From positions 1 through 22,495 of the IMG/VR virus record IMGVR_UViG_3300022200_004149: DNA of 22,495 nt; one strand, given 5' to 3'. This document shows positions 1-9,140 of this stretch, piece by piece. The position numbers and the translations under genes were made by a program. Within the stretch, counting starts at the first letter, position 1; every line of letters begins with the position of its first letter. The stretch is from a virus. Under the pieces are notes generated by a model that made no database searches, was not told where the DNA came from, and saw only the letters and a program-made list of their open reading frames with translations.

Positions 1-139
1 CTGAGTGAATCATAGCAAGTTGCTTCAACTCAAAAATAATAATGTCTTGTTCATCCATGCGATCTACTGGATCATAGAATCCTTTTTCTATTGCATTAGA
101 GTGAATTACATGTGCTGCATAGTCTAAATCAAACTGCAT
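1..139 (-). CDS. MazG-like nucleotide pyrophosphohydrolase, partial (C-terminus outside window)
   Basis: Only the first 46 codons are in the window. The ATG at 139 follows a strong ribosome binding site, AGGAGG, 6 nt upstream and inside the 3' end of dnaE, and the first 11 nt overlap dnaE. The N-terminus reads HVIHSNAIEKGFYDP, and the visible part ends in LAMIHS. This resembles phage MazG-like NTP pyrophosphohydrolases, where an N-A-x-x-K-G-F/W segment is followed by an L-A-x-I-H-S-E helix that starts the metal-binding ExxE motif. Such enzymes hydrolyse (d)NTPs to monophosphates and are common beside phage replication genes. The metal-binding residues lie beyond the edge, so the call rests on the N-terminal pattern and the context. 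Confidence 0.55.
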   Translation of the reverse strand, partial: MQFDLDYAAHVIHSNAIEKGFYDPVDRMDEQDIIIFELKQLAMIHS

Positions 140-3100
140 TTACTACCTCCTGAAATACTAAGTCCTCATCCTTTGAGAGACTGTAATTGATCTTATATGC
201 ATTACCTTCTTCTAGCCTTGTGTAAGCCATTGCAAAGTTACTTGGAAACACAATCATTGATAACAATTCTCTTCCGCTATCCGCGACAACGAGTGAGGCC
301 ATTCTCTTTCCAGCCTTAGTTATACGAGGTCTAAAGGATAGCACGAAATACTCATCTTGTCCATATGGCAGTTGCTTATAATTTAAGAACCGTACCAACG
401 GGCTGTTGCTTTCTCGTATCTGATCAATAGGAACCGCTTCCACAATCCTGTTAGATCCAACAAGAATAATATAAGTGCGACCTGCTTCGATCTGTGTTTC
501 TTCTTCATCGAAAATTCCTACACTTCCTGTATTGTCTAGTAGTTCTACTCTGCTCCAACCCTTACCCCTCTTGATGCCACGGATTACCCCCATCATAATG
601 AACGCACCCTTTTCATCGAAGTCGTCTGCTGTTGTCATGTATGCGTGATAGTGTTGTGGAACCTGTAGATTAAACTCTGGAAGTTGAAGGTACTCATACA
701 TGTTTTCCTTAATCTCTTCGTCATTACGAGGATTATCTGGAAAGGTAACTGCACCAATCTTCTTCATAGACTCTAGCGCTCTGGAGTTTACTCCATTTCC
801 CTTGGTGAAGGTAAACTCTTCAACCTCTGCATAGGAATTGAATGGGCGAGCAGCAATATATCTTTCAGCAATCTTATCTGATATAAACTTAATTGAGGAT
901 AGACCAAACCTAATACCCTTACCCTCAATCTTAAAGTCCATTCCTGAGTCATTGATGTGTGGAAGCCTCATGGGAATATTCATCCTCTTGGTCTCAATCA
1001 TATATTCAGTGCGACCATCCTTGTCCTTCTCATTCTTAAGAAGAGCAAACATAAACTCTAGAGGGTAGTAATACTTTAGCCACGCCGTCCAGTACGAAAC
1101 TGTTGAGTAAGCAACAGCATGAGACTTGTTGAACGAATACCCTGCGTGGGCTTCAAAGTCATGCCACATCTTCTCAGCAGCCGTCCCACCAAGTGGCCCA
1201 GTCGCATTCCGAACAAATAACTCTTTGAATTGATCAAACTCGCTAGCATCCTTTTTCTTACCAATAATCTTACGAACCTTATTGGCCTCTCCCATAGTCA
1301 TACCGCCAAGTTTCGTACAAGCAAGCATAACTTGTTCCTGATATAGAATTGTACCGTAAGTATCTTCTGTAAATTCCTTCATGATTGGTGAGGGATAGGA
1401 AATGCCCTGCTTACCTTGCTTGCGAGCAATATAATCCTTACCAATAGTATTCATTGCTCCTGGGCGTACCAGAGCATTAGAGGCTACCAACTCAGAGAAC
1501 TTGCTTACCCCCATCTTTACCAAAAGGTTTGTGTAGGGTGTTGCTTCACACTGGAAGACACCCTTTGTATGACCGTCAGAGAGCATGTTGTAGATATTTT
1601 TATCCTCCATATCAATCGCATGAAGGTCTATTCTTTTTCCAGACCTATCCTCAACAATGTCCAATGTATCGTTAATAACAGTAAGTGTCTTTAGGCCAAG
1701 AGCATCGATCTTAATGAGGCCAACGTCTGCTGCTTCCTCCATGTCCATAGCCACTACGGGAAGTCTTACATCGCTCCCTGTGACGTTGCGAGTCTCCATT
1801 GGAGCAATCCTACTGATGGGGGTTTTTGACGTTACCACGCCTGCTGCATGGACTCCTGTGCCACGAATACGACCGCGTAGTTGCTCTCCATAAACCTCAA
1901 CCTCTGGATACTTGTCGCGGAACCATTCAGTGTTCTTTCCACCTACAAACTCTTCCCAAGTATCTACTGTCTTGAGCGCACGATTAACATCTGCGAGGGG
2001 AATGTTGAGAACACGACTAACATCTCTAACGACTCCCTTATCCTTAAACTGCAAGAAGGTTGCAATTGATGCTACATGCTTGTACTGACTCTCTAAATAC
2101 TTTTTGACTTCTTCTCTTCGACTATCCTGAATGTCAGAGTCAATATCTGGGAAGTCATCGCGGTCTGCATCTACAAATCGAAAGAACAGCAGTCCGTGCT
2201 TAATTGGATCAATGTCTGTAATTCCAAGTGCATAGCAGACTAGAGATCCTGCTGAAGATCCACGACCTGGACCAACCATGATTCCCTCTTTCTTTGCCCA
2301 ATTAAGCATATTCTGGACAACAATGAAATAGGAAGCAAACTTCTTATCTTTAATGATAGAAAGTTCTTCATCAAGTCGATCTAAATAATCTTGGTTATCA
2401 GAAAGACCGCGTTCCTTGAGTCCCTTCAAGGATTGCTTCTTAATTTGATTATCAGGATCTTTATGTTCAACTGGTAGAAGGTTTAGGTTTCTATGAAGGC
2501 TGTACTCCTCTACTTTGTTTGCAAGATCAAACGTGTTGTCAAACATATCTGTTCTGGCATCTTCGCCCATAGCCGTCCACATCTCTTCTCCACTAAGAAG
2601 ATGAATGTCAAACTTGTTAAATGACATAGAGCGATCTTTCCCATAAAGATAGTTAAGTCTTTCCATCATGTCTTCTACTTTGAGAGATCCTGTGTAAGAG
2701 GATTCTCCGCTTACCTTGGCATGAGTGTTAAGCAAAAGAACCATTTCTTGAATAACCTTTTGATCTACTGTGGCATGGTGACAGTCAGGAGTTACAATTG
2801 TCTTGTATCCTCCAGCATCTGCTAGATCAATAAGCGCCTTATTCATTCCCTCAGTGTTGTGAGGCATTACCTCAACATAAAAGTCTTCTCCAAACCTATC
2901 ACCAAACCACTTAAGATGCTGCTTGGCAACTCCATATTCATCAGCCTCAATTGCCTTGTTAATTAGACCAGACATACATGCAGATGTAACTATAAGTCCT
3001 TCACGATACTTCTCTAGAACTTCCCAGTCAATTCTGGGCTTCTTGTAAAATCCTTCATTCCATGCAATTTCAGATAGGCGAGAAAGATTCTCAAGCCCCT

Positions 3101-3404
3101 GATCATTCTTAGCGATAACAATTAGATGATTGTAAACCAAGTCAAGTGGTGTTGTTCGTTCAGCCTTATCACGGCGATCAAATCTATCACCAGAAAAATA
3201 CATCTCTTGTCCAACAATTGGCTTAATGCCATTTGCACGCATAGTACGAATCCAGTCGCGGTGTCCCGAACTTGTTCCGTGGTTTGTCTGAGCAGCAGCA
3301 GTCATGCCAAGATCCTTTGCACGAAGGGCATAATCTTCTGGAGTAGCCGTTCCATCAAAGATGCTGTAATGATCATGCATGTGCATAGGAAGGTATTTAG
3401 TCAT
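129..3404 (-). CDS. dnaE: DNA polymerase III alpha subunit (DnaE-type replicative polymerase)
   Basis: A full-length family C replicative polymerase of 1091 residues. The N-terminal PHP domain (about 1-230) keeps every metal ligand that I can align to Mycobacterium DnaE1: H8, H10, D17, H42, E67, H93, C143, D207 and H209. Proofreading by the PHP domain is therefore plausible. The palm carries GPGRGSSAGS (378-387), the catalytic PDIDSD with D420 and D422, and the third carboxylate D567 in KIDALG. The fingers include TYGTILYQEQVM (682-693) and GYSFNKSHAVAYS (755-767). Two OB-fold-like segments end the protein (about 934-992 and 1015-1090). The ATG at 3404 has AAGGAAA 4 nt upstream. Its own promoter appears to lie between ssb and this gene. 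No intein or frameshift is seen. Confidence 0.97.
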   Translation of the reverse strand: MTKYLPMHMHDHYSIFDGTATPEDYALRAKDLGMTAAAQTNHGTSSGHRDWIRTMRANGIKPIVGQEMYFSGDRFDRRDKAERTTPLDLVYNHLIVIAKNDQGLENLSRLSEIAWNEGFYKKPRIDWEVLEKYREGLIVTSACMSGLINKAIEADEYGVAKQHLKWFGDRFGEDFYVEVMPHNTEGMNKALIDLADAGGYKTIVTPDCHHATVDQKVIQEMVLLLNTHAKVSGESSYTGSLKVEDMMERLNYLYGKDRSMSFNKFDIHLLSGEEMWTAMGEDARTDMFDNTFDLANKVEEYSLHRNLNLLPVEHKDPDNQIKKQSLKGLKERGLSDNQDYLDRLDEELSIIKDKKFASYFIVVQNMLNWAKKEGIMVGPGRGSSAGSLVCYALGITDIDPIKHGLLFFRFVDADRDDFPDIDSDIQDSRREEVKKYLESQYKHVASIATFLQFKDKGVVRDVSRVLNIPLADVNRALKTVDTWEEFVGGKNTEWFRDKYPEVEVYGEQLRGRIRGTGVHAAGVVTSKTPISRIAPMETRNVTGSDVRLPVVAMDMEEAADVGLIKIDALGLKTLTVINDTLDIVEDRSGKRIDLHAIDMEDKNIYNMLSDGHTKGVFQCEATPYTNLLVKMGVSKFSELVASNALVRPGAMNTIGKDYIARKQGKQGISYPSPIMKEFTEDTYGTILYQEQVMLACTKLGGMTMGEANKVRKIIGKKKDASEFDQFKELFVRNATGPLGGTAAEKMWHDFEAHAGYSFNKSHAVAYSTVSYWTAWLKYYYPLEFMFALLKNEKDKDGRTEYMIETKRMNIPMRLPHINDSGMDFKIEGKGIRFGLSSIKFISDKIAERYIAARPFNSYAEVEEFTFTKGNGVNSRALESMKKIGAVTFPDNPRNDEEIKENMYEYLQLPEFNLQVPQHYHAYMTTADDFDEKGAFIMMGVIRGIKRGKGWSRVELLDNTGSVGIFDEEETQIEAGRTYIILVGSNRIVEAVPIDQIRESNSPLVRFLNYKQLPYGQDEYFVLSFRPRITKAGKRMASLVVADSGRELLSMIVFPSNFAMAYTRLEEGNAYKINYSLSKDEDLVFQEVVNAV

Positions 3405-3471: not shown

Positions 3472-4128
3472 CTACCAGTCGATATTGGTGGTGTTACTTG
3501 AGGCTTGAGTCTCAAACCCTAGGTAGAAAGACTCTTGCTCAGCATAGGCAACCTCACGGACAACCTTCTCAAGATTGAATGGCTCTACGCCAGACCAATC
3601 ATGTTTTTCCGTATCTGGATCTCCAGGAAGGAGGATATATGTTGTGTCAGTACCGCTGCCCTGACGCTTCATGCGCCACATGCGGTTGCTGATACTTCCT
3701 GTTTCCAAGGCGTACTCCCGTAGGGTGTTAAATGCAGACTGCTTTCCCACTCCCTGAGACCATACAGCAACATATGGTGGCTCTAGACCATCATCTACAA
3801 AGAGATTGGTGTAGAAGCGAAAGCGTGAACGCCAACCACTCTTAGGCTCCTTACGAGCCATCTCACATCCAAAGCATCGTCCCTCAGAATCCTGAGTACA
3901 GACTGCCTTGCGCTTGTAATCCTTTGGATTGGTGTGTTCTGATACAACGATTGCAAGGTCTCGCGCTGCATCAAAGTTTGGTGAATCTTCATCAAGTTCG
4001 TTAACGAAACGAACCTTTGCACTCTGGCCATCTTCTAACTTGAGCCAGCGAACCTTTGTTCCATCTCCTGCTGATGCTGTTGGTCGATCAAGTGACTCCA
4101 TGGCTTTTAGCCCTTTCATAATTCCCAT
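3472..4128 (-). CDS. gp32-like single-stranded DNA-binding protein
   Basis: A 218-residue protein between the primase and polymerase genes. It begins with a short helical stretch, then an OB-fold-like core (WLKLEDGQSAKVRFV, 29-43). A zinc subdomain follows with H65, C77, C85 and C88. This H-C-C-C order and spacing closely matches the zinc site of T4 gp32 (H64, C77, C87, C90). The aromatic and basic stretch GWRSRFRFYTN (98-108) and later W/F/Y residues suit single-strand DNA binding. The tail ends in TNIDW, loosely like the acidic-aromatic tip of bacterial SSB that binds partner proteins. The ATG at 4128 has AAGGAGAG about 4 nt upstream, 19 nt after the primase stop. It probably coats single-stranded DNA at the fork. 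Family assignment comes from motif and context, not a search. Confidence 0.78.
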   Translation of the reverse strand: MGIMKGLKAMESLDRPTASAGDGTKVRWLKLEDGQSAKVRFVNELDEDSPNFDAARDLAIVVSEHTNPKDYKRKAVCTQDSEGRCFGCEMARKEPKSGWRSRFRFYTNLFVDDGLEPPYVAVWSQGVGKQSAFNTLREYALETGSISNRMWRMKRQGSGTDTTYILLPGDPDTEKHDWSGVEPFNLEKVVREVAYAEQESFYLGFETQASSNTTNIDW

Positions 4129-4147: not shown

Positions 4148-5095
4148 TTATAAATACATTGCCAATAATGGATCTTGGACTCTTTTTGTTAATTCTTGGA
4201 TATCTGCATCTGTCATGTCGCCAATATCCTTGAATCTTTGTGGTAATCCCACAACTGTTGCGCGATCTTTCATTCTATTAACAATCTTGTCAGTTAATGT
4301 CCTTCCAGCATCATCGTTATCTGGAATAACTATAACATTATTAAAGTATTTTGTCAATAGGTCTAATTGAAACTTTGAAATATATACCCCCAAAGTTGCT
4401 ATGGCTGGTACACCACACTGATCTAGACGAATAGCATCAAAGGAAGACTCTACGATATAGACAGAATCATGTCTCTTGGCACGGTGTAGATTAAACAGCA
4501 CCTTGGACTTTGGAAGACCATTCGTGTTTCTAAAATCTTTCCCCTCAACGCTTCTGCCAATGAACCCTACATAGAGGCTTCCATCAGGATTCTGGACTGG
4601 AATGGTTACCATGTCCTGATTCTCACTGAATCCTAAAGAAAACTTTTCCATAGAAGATCTACTAATCCTTCTACCCTCAAAGTATGATGTTGCTCTAGGA
4701 GATTCCAAGGCTTGATTATTTAATCTCTTTATCATAACCTCATCAAATGGAATATACTCTTGCTTCTCTTCAAGCATCTTATCCACACTGTCTATAATAT
4801 TGGTACTCACCTTGGCAGAGTCAATAACTCTTCCTACTTCAAAGAATGATTTTTTCGTAAGGTGCATCAATAGTTCAGTTAGATTACGGGATTCGTGGCA
4901 TGAGAAACAAAAGAATGTGCCATGCTCTTTGCTTACCTCTCCTGCTGGAGTTCTGTAGTTTGCATGGTAGGGACAAAAGATAATATAGTCTGAGTCTACC
5001 TCATTCTCAATCTTTACCCCTGAGATTGCAAGGACTCGTCTGACTTGTTCTGGCGAGTATATATCGGTCTGTTCTTGTCTAGTCCGTCGATACAT
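4148..5095 (-). CDS. dnaG: DnaG-type DNA primase (CHC2 zinc finger plus TOPRIM)
   Basis: A compact primase of 315 residues. The CHC2 zinc site is C41-P-Y-H44 with C63-F-S-C66. The catalytic core includes GFIGRSVEGKDFRN (177-190) and then TOPRIM: the acidic residue E216 in VYIVESSFDA, and PDNDDAGR (258-265), which matches the DxD-x-AGR element with D259 and D261. Bacterial DnaG is about 600 residues. This one lacks the long C-terminal helicase-binding domain, ending soon after KDIGD (289-293). The ATG at 5095 is the only good start; upstream there is only a weak AGGAAAGAAG. The first 82 nt overlap the preceding gene, so translation may be coupled. It makes RNA primers for the DnaB-like helicase and DnaE replisome encoded nearby. 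Confidence 0.92.
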   Translation of the reverse strand: MYRRTRQEQTDIYSPEQVRRVLAISGVKIENEVDSDYIIFCPYHANYRTPAGEVSKEHGTFFCFSCHESRNLTELLMHLTKKSFFEVGRVIDSAKVSTNIIDSVDKMLEEKQEYIPFDEVMIKRLNNQALESPRATSYFEGRRISRSSMEKFSLGFSENQDMVTIPVQNPDGSLYVGFIGRSVEGKDFRNTNGLPKSKVLFNLHRAKRHDSVYIVESSFDAIRLDQCGVPAIATLGVYISKFQLDLLTKYFNNVIVIPDNDDAGRTLTDKIVNRMKDRATVVGLPQRFKDIGDMTDADIQELTKRVQDPLLAMYL

Positions 5096-5331
5096 GCGGC
5101 ATTCTTCTTTCCTATATATGATCCGTATACGCTTAATATAAATTCGTAGTAGTTACCTGTATATGATAGCGACCAATCTGGCTCTATGTCAAATCTGACG
5201 ACATAGCCCTCATCTCTCATGGAGTCAGATAAAAGTCTGATATATTCTTGCTTCATGCGTGGAATAAATCGGTCATCGTGTATCTGACCGTCTAAGGAGA
5301 ACCTCTTTATTTTTTTATGCATGAAACTCAT
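5014..5331 (-). CDS. Small conserved-looking replication-module protein of unknown function
   Basis: A protein of 105 residues, function not recognised. Notable segments are IHDDRFIPRMKQEY (17-30), MRDEGYVVRFDIEPDW (38-53) and a C-terminal beta-like YEFILSVYGSYIGKKNA. From memory, actinophages encode short proteins with the same layout (a GYVPxLDL-like strand, then a YxFxLxxxGVYVG-like strand), so I treat it as real. No signal peptide, membrane segment or cysteine motif is seen. It overlaps the primase by 82 nt. The ATG at 5331 lacks a Shine-Dalgarno sequence, and a perfect TATAAT sits 6 nt before it, pointing to a leaderless message. An ATG at codon 4 is an alternative start. Confidence 0.72.
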   Translation of the reverse strand: MSFMHKKIKRFSLDGQIHDDRFIPRMKQEYIRLLSDSMRDEGYVVRFDIEPDWSLSYTGNYYEFILSVYGSYIGKKNAACIDGLDKNRPIYTRQNKSDESLQSQG

Positions 5332-5337
5332 GGATTA

Positions 5338-5343
5338 ATTATA
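5338..5343 (-). promoter_or_regulatory. Candidate leaderless promoter, -10 box of the 105-residue gene
   Basis: TATAAT, then TAATCC, then ATG. The A of the start codon is the seventh nucleotide after the box, where transcription is expected to begin, and there is no ribosome binding site. A TTGACA lies further upstream (5374-5369), but 25 nt of spacing is too long for a normal pair. The region 5332-5415 otherwise holds nothing I can name. Confidence 0.5.
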
Positions 5344-5415: not shown

Positions 5416-5982
5416 CTACCGCGACTCAATAAAAAGGTATGATGTGATTACATAAAGTCCATTATTATCTACGTCCTTATTGTTTACACTGACCTCAGAT
5501 AGACCCAAGTAGTAGGATGATGGGAAGATAACGGTCATATTGTTGTCAATCTTCTGCTCATAAGCAATGTCTCCACCAATCTGTAGGGTAAGATCTCCCC
5601 CATCAAACTCTTTTGGATCGTTAAAGACAAAGGTAATAATTGTAAATGCAGCAGAGTCATAGTGTAGTAGTGAGGACTGGCCATCTCCGAAGTACCTAAT
5701 CTGAGTTGAGTGATTATTTACTGAATCATATATCCCATACATTGAGTTTGTGTGAATTAGATTCTCAACCACCTCAGGAGAAAAGAATGTCTCCATTGAG
5801 TTATTGTGTATCGGAGATATCTCTAAATCCTTGTACATGTCCAAAAGCCACACGCCATCTGGACCTTGGCACTTTTCTGTAAATTGATGAACTTCATTAA
5901 GGATGTTTGATAATTCCTTTTCACTAAAGGTTTCTTTAATCACTAGAGCATCAAATGGCTCTGCCAGTCTTTCAAAAATCAT
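5416..5982 (-). CDS. 2OG-Fe(II) oxygenase-like protein with a degenerate active site
   Basis: A protein of 188 residues with the outline of a prolyl-4-hydroxylase/2OG-Fe(II) dioxygenase double-stranded beta helix. The proximal iron ligands are present as H107-Y-D109 in SSLLHYDSAAFTIITFVF. FDGGDL (126-131) matches the conserved GG-E/D-L turn, and VIFPSSYYLGLSEV (151-164) matches the FPS strand that normally carries the distal histidine. That histidine aligns with L159, and the arginine that usually binds 2-oxoglutarate (GxR) is also missing in GLYVITSYLF. It may have altered chemistry, be non-catalytic, or be a look-alike fold. The ATG at 5982 has AAGGAGA 5 nt upstream, 29 nt after the helicase stop. 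Its position among replication genes hints at nucleotide or DNA modification, but that is only inference. Confidence 0.6.
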   Translation of the reverse strand: MIFERLAEPFDALVIKETFSEKELSNILNEVHQFTEKCQGPDGVWLLDMYKDLEISPIHNNSMETFFSPEVVENLIHTNSMYGIYDSVNNHSTQIRYFGDGQSSLLHYDSAAFTIITFVFNDPKEFDGGDLTLQIGGDIAYEQKIDNNMTVIFPSSYYLGLSEVSVNNKDVDNNGLYVITSYLFIESR

Positions 5983-6011: not shown

Positions 6012-7223
6012 TTATTCAAAATCTTTGTAGATAAATCTACCAGAGTCAAAGTCTACCTGAACCATAAACTCTCCAAGAAAGCCATTACGATTCTTTCTAA
6101 ATACCGCCTCAAGAACATCGCTGTTAGGGGCACGACCAAGGGCTAGAAGCCAGTCTGCATCGTAAGCAATCTGGCGTGACCAAGAAGTCTGTCCAAGAGT
6201 TGGAACACTATTCATGTCCGTAATATCGTCTGGGGTTGCAGAAGAGATTGCGACAATGGGAATTTGTTCAGAGATAGCCAGCAACTTTAGTTCACGACTA
6301 AGGTTTTTCATCTTAACAACCTCGTTATCAGTCCTAGTATTACTAGTCATCAAGTTAAGGTAATCAACAAAAACAATGTCTGGTCTGTACTGATCAATCT
6401 TTCCACGCAACACGCTTGGACTCACCTCACCAATTCCCTCATTAGAAATGATGTGAATGCTTGGCTTACCCTCAAAGGTCTTTGTCATCCACTTCTTCAT
6501 CATGTCTGTCTCAACATCTCCACGAGAGAGTTTTCTGTGACTCCATACCCCTTGACCAAGAATAGTAAAGACGCGATTCCTTACCTCTGTCTCAGTCATT
6601 TCTAGAGAAACAATCAGGGGGGACTTGCCATTCCTCCAAGCCTGAACAGCAAGGTAGAGAGCCATCCAAGATTTACCAATAGCAGGATAAGCAAGGAGAA
6701 CGCCTAACTGTCCAGGAGTAATTCCTGCTGGCATGTAGTTGTCAAATCCTGCCAGACCTGTGTAGATTCCGTGTGTTCCACTATCCTGTAGTCGCTTGAT
6801 GTTCTCAAAGTAGGCAATAGCATCATCCACATTGGATACGTCTAGATCTCTTGCTGTGGAAGTAATGTGCTTTAGCCTTGCTGTCTCTGACATAAGACCT
6901 TCAAGTGCTGATATAGAATCTCCATCTTGCACTGATGATGCTGCTGACCTGAGCATAACCTTCACATTATCATTAAGAAACTCTGTACGCAACTCATCAA
7001 TGTGATGCTTTGTTGCGCCAGTCTCCGCAACATAATCAAAGTCTGGGAACCTCTGCTTAACAATGTTGAGGGGAGGAACAGTTTGGTTTTGCTCATAATA
7101 GGATCTAACGAAATCCCAAATGTCCGTATGAGTCCTTAGCATTGCCCCCACGTTTGCCTGTAGCAAAACATGCATCTGCTTATCATTTAATACTGCCGAT
7201 AGGGTCTTAGCCTCAAGATTCAT
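6012..7223 (-). CDS. dnaB: DnaB-type replicative DNA helicase
   Basis: A 403-residue RecA-fold hexameric helicase, shorter than bacterial DnaB (about 450-470). The N-terminal 120 residues are helical. A DnaB-like linker follows, IYTGLAGFDNYMPAGITPGQL (153-173), leading to a Walker A of AYPAIGKS (178-185), in which the first glycine is alanine. SLEM (206-209) holds the likely catalytic glutamate E208, and DIVFVDYLNLM (282-292) is Walker B with D287. FRKNRNG (375-381) matches the DnaB K-x-R-N-G motif near the arginine finger. It should unwind DNA ahead of the polymerase and recruit the primase. The ATG at 7223 has AAGGA about 10 nt upstream and overlaps the previous gene by 11 nt. Confidence 0.93.
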   Translation of the reverse strand: MNLEAKTLSAVLNDKQMHVLLQANVGAMLRTHTDIWDFVRSYYEQNQTVPPLNIVKQRFPDFDYVAETGATKHHIDELRTEFLNDNVKVMLRSAASSVQDGDSISALEGLMSETARLKHITSTARDLDVSNVDDAIAYFENIKRLQDSGTHGIYTGLAGFDNYMPAGITPGQLGVLLAYPAIGKSWMALYLAVQAWRNGKSPLIVSLEMTETEVRNRVFTILGQGVWSHRKLSRGDVETDMMKKWMTKTFEGKPSIHIISNEGIGEVSPSVLRGKIDQYRPDIVFVDYLNLMTSNTRTDNEVVKMKNLSRELKLLAISEQIPIVAISSATPDDITDMNSVPTLGQTSWSRQIAYDADWLLALGRAPNSDVLEAVFRKNRNGFLGEFMVQVDFDSGRFIYKDFE

Positions 7224-8675: not shown

Positions 8676-8684
8676 AGTATATCA
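8676..8684 (-). promoter_or_regulatory. Candidate extended -10 promoter of the zinc ribbon gene
   Basis: TGA then TATACT on the minus strand, matching the extended -10 form TGn-TATAAT in all but one base. The TGA is also the stop codon of the preceding tail gene. No convincing -35 is seen. Transcription would start about 3-4 nt before the ATG at 8666, giving an almost leaderless message, in line with the absent ribosome binding site. It lies at the switch from tail to regulatory genes. Confidence 0.5.
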
Positions 8685-9125
8685 TGTTGGTATGCCGATT
8701 GCGGTGATATTAACAGTTGTGGTTACTTGACCAGACTTATTAAACTTAACAACGCCTTCGATTCGTGAAGTAGTAATTGATCTAATGACTACGGTAACGT
8801 CATCGCCAATGTCTGAAGCGCCACGATTAACTACCGTGGCAGTTGCTACAGGTGGATACTTAAAGTCAGAAGCGTAGGAAAAGGAAAAGGGTCTGGTAGT
8901 TCCTGCTGTAACGCTTTCGTTATTAACAATGTCTACATATCCAGCAATAATTCTTGCTGCTCTAGTCTGAATGACCTGATTGCCAGCATCCCTTGTGGAT
9001 ACCGTAGTGTAGTTATAGGTTGCTGAAGAGATCTCGTTTGATACTTCGTTGATAGCGTTAGCAATCTGATAGATGTAAGTAACGTCTAGTGGTTGTCCAC
9101 GATCTGGAAGAGGAATTTTTGCCAT
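8682..9125 (-). CDS. Small beta-rich tail or adhesin-like protein
   Basis: A 147-residue protein. A helical N-terminus (MAKIPLPDRGQPLD start, then YIYQIANAINEVSNEI) is followed by a beta-rich body. Residues 84-147 (ASDFKYPPV onwards) run as alternating strands: P-P-V-ATATV, DDVTVVIRSITTS, IEGVVKFNK, TTTVNITAIG. This loosely recalls the small beta-sandwich of H-type lectins and similar phage attachment proteins, where F-x-x-P-P-V starts the domain and an A-I-G strand closes it. It is the last of the tail genes, so a receptor-binding or fibre-tip part is plausible. There is no Shine-Dalgarno site; an extended -10 lies 6 nt before the ATG, suggesting its own leaderless message. Function remains uncertain. 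Confidence 0.7.
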   Translation of the reverse strand: MAKIPLPDRGQPLDVTYIYQIANAINEVSNEISSATYNYTTVSTRDAGNQVIQTRAARIIAGYVDIVNNESVTAGTTRPFSFSYASDFKYPPVATATVVNRGASDIGDDVTVVIRSITTSRIEGVVKFNKSGQVTTTVNITAIGIPT

Positions 9126-9131
9126 GAGAAA

Positions 9132-9140
9132 ATTATACCA
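9132..9140 (-). promoter_or_regulatory. Candidate leaderless extended -10 promoter for the small adhesin-like gene
   Basis: TGG then TATAAT, a perfect extended -10, then TTTCTC and ATG at 9125. The A of the ATG is the seventh base after the box. No ribosome binding site is visible and no good -35. It lies in the 15-nt gap between the two tail genes. Confidence 0.55.

Follow-up and report, generated by a model that had tools for sequence, protein, structure and literature searches.

A conserved TATAAT box points to leaderless expression of a 105-residue gene in the replication cluster of a phage clade

The 105-aa gene on the minus strand of the window, i.e., the whole stretch of DNA analyzed (one virus record of 22,495 bases), is very probably leaderless, with a message predicted to begin at the A of its ATG codon at position 5331 or no more than one or two bases away. 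This reading, put forward by the initial annotation, was supported by the conservation of a TATAAT box and of its spacing to the start codon, by the lack of a Shine-Dalgarno (SD) sequence, and by a genome-wide peak of such boxes at exactly 6 nt before starts. The gene is part of a cluster encoded entirely on the minus strand in the order helicase, oxygenase-like gene, 105-aa gene, primase, SSB and DnaE:

6012-7223, minus strand: DnaB-type helicase, by profile match
5416-5982, minus strand: 2OG-Fe(II) oxygenase-like gene, by a weak match, with the SD aaaggag
5014-5331, minus strand: 105-aa gene, phrog_17515 (unknown function), by open reading frame and PHROG profile
4148-5095, minus strand: primase, with its start within the 105-aa gene and an SD-like aggaaagaag of its own
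3472-4128, minus strand: SSB, with the SD aaggagag
129-3404, minus strand: DnaE-type DNA polymerase, with the weaker SD aaggaaa

The designation of the 105-aa gene as a replication gene is based only on its position in this cluster, while the protein itself matches a PHROG of unknown function (E 9.7e-24, residues 4-97 on positions 1-97 of the 98 in the profile). Searches with this protein returned no match in Pfam up to E 0.1, none in a PDB sequence search up to E 1 and none in a PDB fold search at E<=0.001. Its AlphaFold model has a mean pLDDT of 82.9, with residues 1-3 below 50.

The site before the gene, given here in the order in which it is read on the minus strand, consists of the following elements:

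5345-5344, minus strand: TG immediately upstream of the -10 element, shifted by one base towards the box relative to the usual TGnTATAAT
5343-5338, minus strand: TATAAT, the candidate -10 element of the proposed leaderless promoter
5337-5332, minus strand: TAATCC, the bases between box and start codon
5331-5329, minus strand: ATG start codon of the 105-aa gene, with A5331 as the predicted +1

The motif as originally described, TATAAT followed by six bases and ATG without a ribosome binding site, is exact: the distance from the first T of the box to the A of ATG is exactly 12 nt, and no SD of three or more bases was found in the 17 bases scanned (-20 to -4; row L001, which has the same sequence as the window there). 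The accompanying claim that the neighboring genes have clear ribosome binding sites applies to SSB and the oxygenase-like gene and less so to DnaE with its weaker site, and the contrast to the 105-aa gene is real. In relatives, SD sequences of at least four bases were found at 26 of 26 helicase genes and 18 of 21 primase genes (26 loci chosen from 80 helicase-selected ones), the primase figure being flattered by the use of the best of the candidate starts. If only the window is considered, the motif does not exceed what chance would give. TATAAT followed by ATG after 5-8 nt occurs three times compared to 1.51 expected, a count reached in 26 of 100 shuffles, and a sigma-70 scan gave 58 sites compared to 58.3 in shuffled sequence. 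Since these statistics are within chance, the window is unable to settle the case, which is decided by the comparison with relatives and by the spacing profile.

For the comparison with relatives, loci were collected with two queries, the 105-aa protein (14 loci) and the helicase, a query that is neutral as to the presence of the 105-aa gene (80 loci); a further locus (L015) was fetched at the window's own site. The profile found the 105-aa gene in 74 of these 95 loci (L001-L095), made up of the 14 loci from the protein query and 60 from the helicase query. Together with the window, this gave 75 rows that were reduced to 50 distinct start regions (40 bases upstream and 60 downstream), some of which are identical in the last 24 upstream bases. 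Among the in-frame start codons near the profile start, the one farthest upstream was used in each case, irrespective of the box. TATAAT was present in 49 of the 50 start regions and TATACT in the remaining one; the spacer between box and ATG measured 5, 6 and 7 nt in 9, 29 and 12 of them, respectively, the start codon was ATG in all 50, and the base before it was T or C in 41. Fewer than four matching SD bases were found in 45 start regions. Clustering of the start regions at 60% identity over the 40 bases that precede the box resulted in 15 context groups, and the box was found in all 15 representatives. The largest group comprises 31 of the 50 start regions, with the helicase gene as its usual neighbor. 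Twenty of the 80 helicase-selected loci had no match to the 105-aa gene. In four of them (L053, L054, L057 and L086) the sequence does not reach beyond the helicase match, and in 15 others the 150 bases after the helicase match were assigned by eye to primase or another gene. In the remaining locus (L036) a different gene occupies the expected place after the helicase match, which ends at 4241, and this gene has its own TGATATAAT followed by six bases and ATG.

Boxes at the same distance from a start codon also form a class throughout these genomes. The spacing profile covered 11 contigs (ten relatives and the window) with 1,259 genes and 2,375 start-region ATGs, genes being called by a simple longest-ORF rule with several ATGs counted per ORF. 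At a distance of exactly 6 nt upstream of start-region ATGs, TATAAT was counted 77 times, sites that are not all independent because the contigs share ancestry, while the 40 other distances between 0 and 40 nt totaled 196, or 4.9 each; a spacing of 5 nt, with three counts genome-wide, was not enriched. Among 33,490 ATGs outside start regions, only 18 had TATAAT at 6 nt and 52 at 5-7 nt, without a peak. The extended pattern TGNTATAATN6ATG was found 89 times in 24 contigs and was present in every one of them, compared to two occurrences of the reversed pattern. In two non-actinobacterial control stretches of 50 kb each, from T4 and S-PM2, the count of TATAAT at 6 nt was zero. The class was further characterized with 83 genes that have a box 6 nt before ATG or GTG. 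In these, the upstream TG is well represented (T.77, G.89), and the -1 base is T in.64, C in.29, A in.06 and G in.01, in agreement with the pyrimidine-purine step that is usual at bacterial transcription start sites. SD sequences of at least four bases precede 20 of the 83, which compares to 21% of random positions and, for other genes, to 55% at the first start and 74% at the best start. No -35 signal was detected upstream of the boxes in this class; a TTGACA lying 25 nt before the box of the 105-aa gene (hand count) was considered as a -35 element and discarded.

Only two boxes in the 11 contigs lie at 11-14 nt, a distance corresponding to potential leaders of 5-8 nt; boxes return from 15 nt on, and 26 of the 36 at 15-20 nt are accompanied by an SD. 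TATAAT was also slightly overrepresented in the 11 contigs at distances of 9 nt (15 counts) and 10 nt (9 counts) from ATG, which might reflect leaders as short as 3-4 nt or a second ATG in the same frame. At 8 of the 83 sites, the upstream gene, by the simple gene calls, ends 7 nt before the ATG, so that the stop codon falls inside the box and promoter, stop and start are contained within fewer than 20 bases. Three genes with a leaderless box (L096:17145-17585, L103:16273-16608 and L096:11148-11753) match HNH endonuclease or endonuclease VII families, and such a compact promoter-plus-start cassette would suit mobile genes.

A second gene of the window belongs to the same class and serves as a control for the 105-aa gene:

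9132-9140, minus strand: box TGGTATAAT, six bases before the ATG at 9125, of the same class as the box of the 105-aa gene
8682-9125, minus strand: 147-aa gene, predicted to be leaderless in the window, with relatives that are leaderless or have a short SD leader

The 147-aa protein had no match in a PHROG search at E<=0.001. Its homologues gave 52 distinct upstream sequences. Half of these (26) were classed as leaderless, including one (L014) counted as such despite an SD-like stretch overlapping the box; in 22 the box stands 15-28 nt from the ATG (at 15-19 nt in 21 cases), with an SD in the predicted leader, two are intermediate (10 and 11 nt), and two are without a good box. On a tree of these homologues, quickly built and with some long branches, 25 were labeled leaderless and 23 SD leader, the latter including L067 with a weak box, while four (L014, L037, L064 and L091) were left unlabeled. 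The two modes require at least seven changes on this tree, three of which are forced by well supported branches. Since shuffled labels gave about 16 changes, translation mode is also clustered on the tree. Unlike this gene, the 105-aa gene keeps a constant mode in the 50 start regions. Bacterial orthologues are likewise described as changing their translation signal (PMC3160421).

With regard to the factor that might read these boxes, the host of the window phage would be actinobacterial, as judged from its relatives. WhiB, which is described as a marker of actinophages (PMC10202952), exceeded the cut-off in 14 of 24 contigs searched; the window was among the 24, and no WhiB was found in this 22.5-kb fragment. 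A helicase alignment against genome contigs, carried out as a host search, found no relative. In genome contigs, WhiB was encountered at two loci only (L126 and L127), both phage-type and in MAGs named Chitinophagaceae and Chitinophaga pinensis, which are probably misbinned actinophage contigs. A sigma-70 region 2 (PF04542) was found in none of the 24 contigs, several of which are fragments, and the host's own sigma factor is thus the likely reader. In the mechanism we propose, host RNA polymerase with the housekeeping sigma factor would bind the -10 TATAAT and open the DNA, RNA synthesis would begin at the A of the ATG (5331), giving a message without leader, and a 70S ribosome would bind the 5'-terminal AUG directly. 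The same RNA would probably continue through primase, SSB and DNA polymerase, each translated from its own SD, co-transcription with the 105-aa gene being judged from gene order and spacing only.

Several observations do not fit the leaderless reading smoothly: the spacing at this gene is looser (5-7 nt) than in the class, at least four SD bases are present in 5 of the 50 start regions, and the bases before the box are TGA or TGG in 9 and end in TG in 18, leaving 23 of the 50 without TG. In addition, the box was missing in those members of an outgroup that were read. This outgroup consists of homologues of the 105-aa gene in 136 records of cultured phages (127 from Streptomyces and 9 from Rhodococcus phages). 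Nine of these were read (Bmoc, Circinus, Braelyn, Francesca, Trina, Ankus, Karimac, Weasels2 and Wakanda, with Bmoc and Braelyn being near copies of each other), and none of the nine, out of the 136 matched, had a TATAAT in the 42 bases upstream. All nine proteins begin at the residue matching Met4 of the window protein (GTG in Weasels2), and the outgroup helicase, where annotated, ends at or near the start of the homologue. The lack of the box together with the start at Met4 suggests that box and short N-terminal extension occur together in the clade of the window. In the 50 kb of Bmoc read, TA...T occurs eight times at 6 nt and at most five times at every other distance. Five of the 49 annotated plus-strand starts of Bmoc (L160) have TA...T exactly 6 nt upstream, including those of the head maturation protease and the head-to-tail adaptor, and leaderless starts are therefore likely in this phage too.

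As an alternative, the box might serve as a promoter for primase, SSB and polymerase only, with the 105-aa protein made by translational coupling on a read-through message from the preceding genes. The nine homologues, which start at or a few bases from the helicase stop and have no box, look coupled, and several relatives also have the ATG shortly after the helicase stop. In the window, however, the oxygenase-like gene intervenes, with 84 nt between its stop and the 105-aa start, and the box lies within 5-7 nt of the 105-aa ATG in all 50 start regions, in keeping with a genome-wide peak that is tied to start codons. We consider this alternative very unlikely. Even less probable is a genuine promoter combined with translation from Met4 (5322), which would leave a 9-nt leader. 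The outgroup starts, the disordered residues 1-3 in the AlphaFold model and the onset of the PHROG match at residue 4 speak for this arrangement, but Met4 is not preceded by an SD, and in 34 of the 50 start regions the ATG next to the box is the sole in-frame ATG, GTG or TTG among the eight codon positions examined, that of Met4 included. With no other candidate available, the box-adjacent ATG must be the start in those 34. This count replaces the invariance of Met1 in 26 aligned proteins, which was dropped as evidence since it arises partly by construction, the sequences having been cut at the chosen ATG. That TATAAT is a chance AT-rich match, as the window-only statistics would allow, can practically be dismissed, because it is contradicted by the presence of the box in 15 of 15 context representatives compared to 52 of 33,490 non-start ATGs at 5-7 nt.

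A leaderless start of the 105-aa gene, our preferred reading, is nothing exceptional in kind: in those Actinobacteria genomes in which leaderless genes were found (86 of 89), they make up 19.2% of the genes on average (PMC3160421), and phage transcripts are often leaderless according to one phage paper (PMC5312081). From the sequence comparisons, what appears unusual is the strength of conservation at a single phage gene, the sharp spacing class and the two-state second gene. The 105-aa gene is predicted to be leaderless in 50 of 50 start regions, while the gene at 9125 changes modes several times on its tree. It is conceivable, as a tentative suggestion, that leaderless translation is a selected, gene-specific trait in this phage clade, and that the message class sets when or how well each gene is translated while the ribosomes or initiation factors of the host are altered in the course of infection. 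Since its relatives combine a single type of promoter with two modes of translation, the 147-aa gene represents a natural experiment on why a gene is leaderless or not. Moreover, a box locked 6 nt before the start allows gene starts, promoters and probable message ends to be read from sequence alone in uncultured phages, for which gene callers relying on SD sites may misplace leaderless starts.

The cI gene of phage lambda is a single regulatory gene of a coliphage. It resembles the present case as a phage gene with a leaderless message (PMC9031893) and differs from it in that a replication-cluster gene and a genome-wide class are concerned here. For leaderless messages, binding of the 70S ribosome to the 5' AUG is described as the main route (PMC9031893). 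In sequence, the site resembles the 'TA-led' leaderless genes of Actinobacteria, in which a TANNNT precedes the start codon by about 12 bp (Zheng et al., 2011, PMC3160421): the first T of the box of the 105-aa gene lies 12 nt before the ATG, and an SD is lacking. However, 'TA-led' genes were described from bacterial chromosomes, while a phage gene and a phage clade are involved here, with a perfect TATAAT that is mostly preceded by TGn. For actinobacterial phages, the literature searches made here brought up isolated leaderless proposals only (PMC11373665, PMC11855218). Gene 90 of Adephagia is likewise an actinobacterial phage gene with a predicted leaderless start, but it is a single prediction at a toxin-antitoxin gene, presented in that passage without a comparison across relatives (PMC11373665). 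Finally, the leaders reported for Lactococcus cremoris are either shorter than 5 nt or much longer, with none identified between 4 and 14 nt (PMC10986495), a gap that resembles the scarcity of boxes at 11-14 nt in our spacing profile, even though the former was measured in a Firmicute and the latter is predicted for phages from their DNA.
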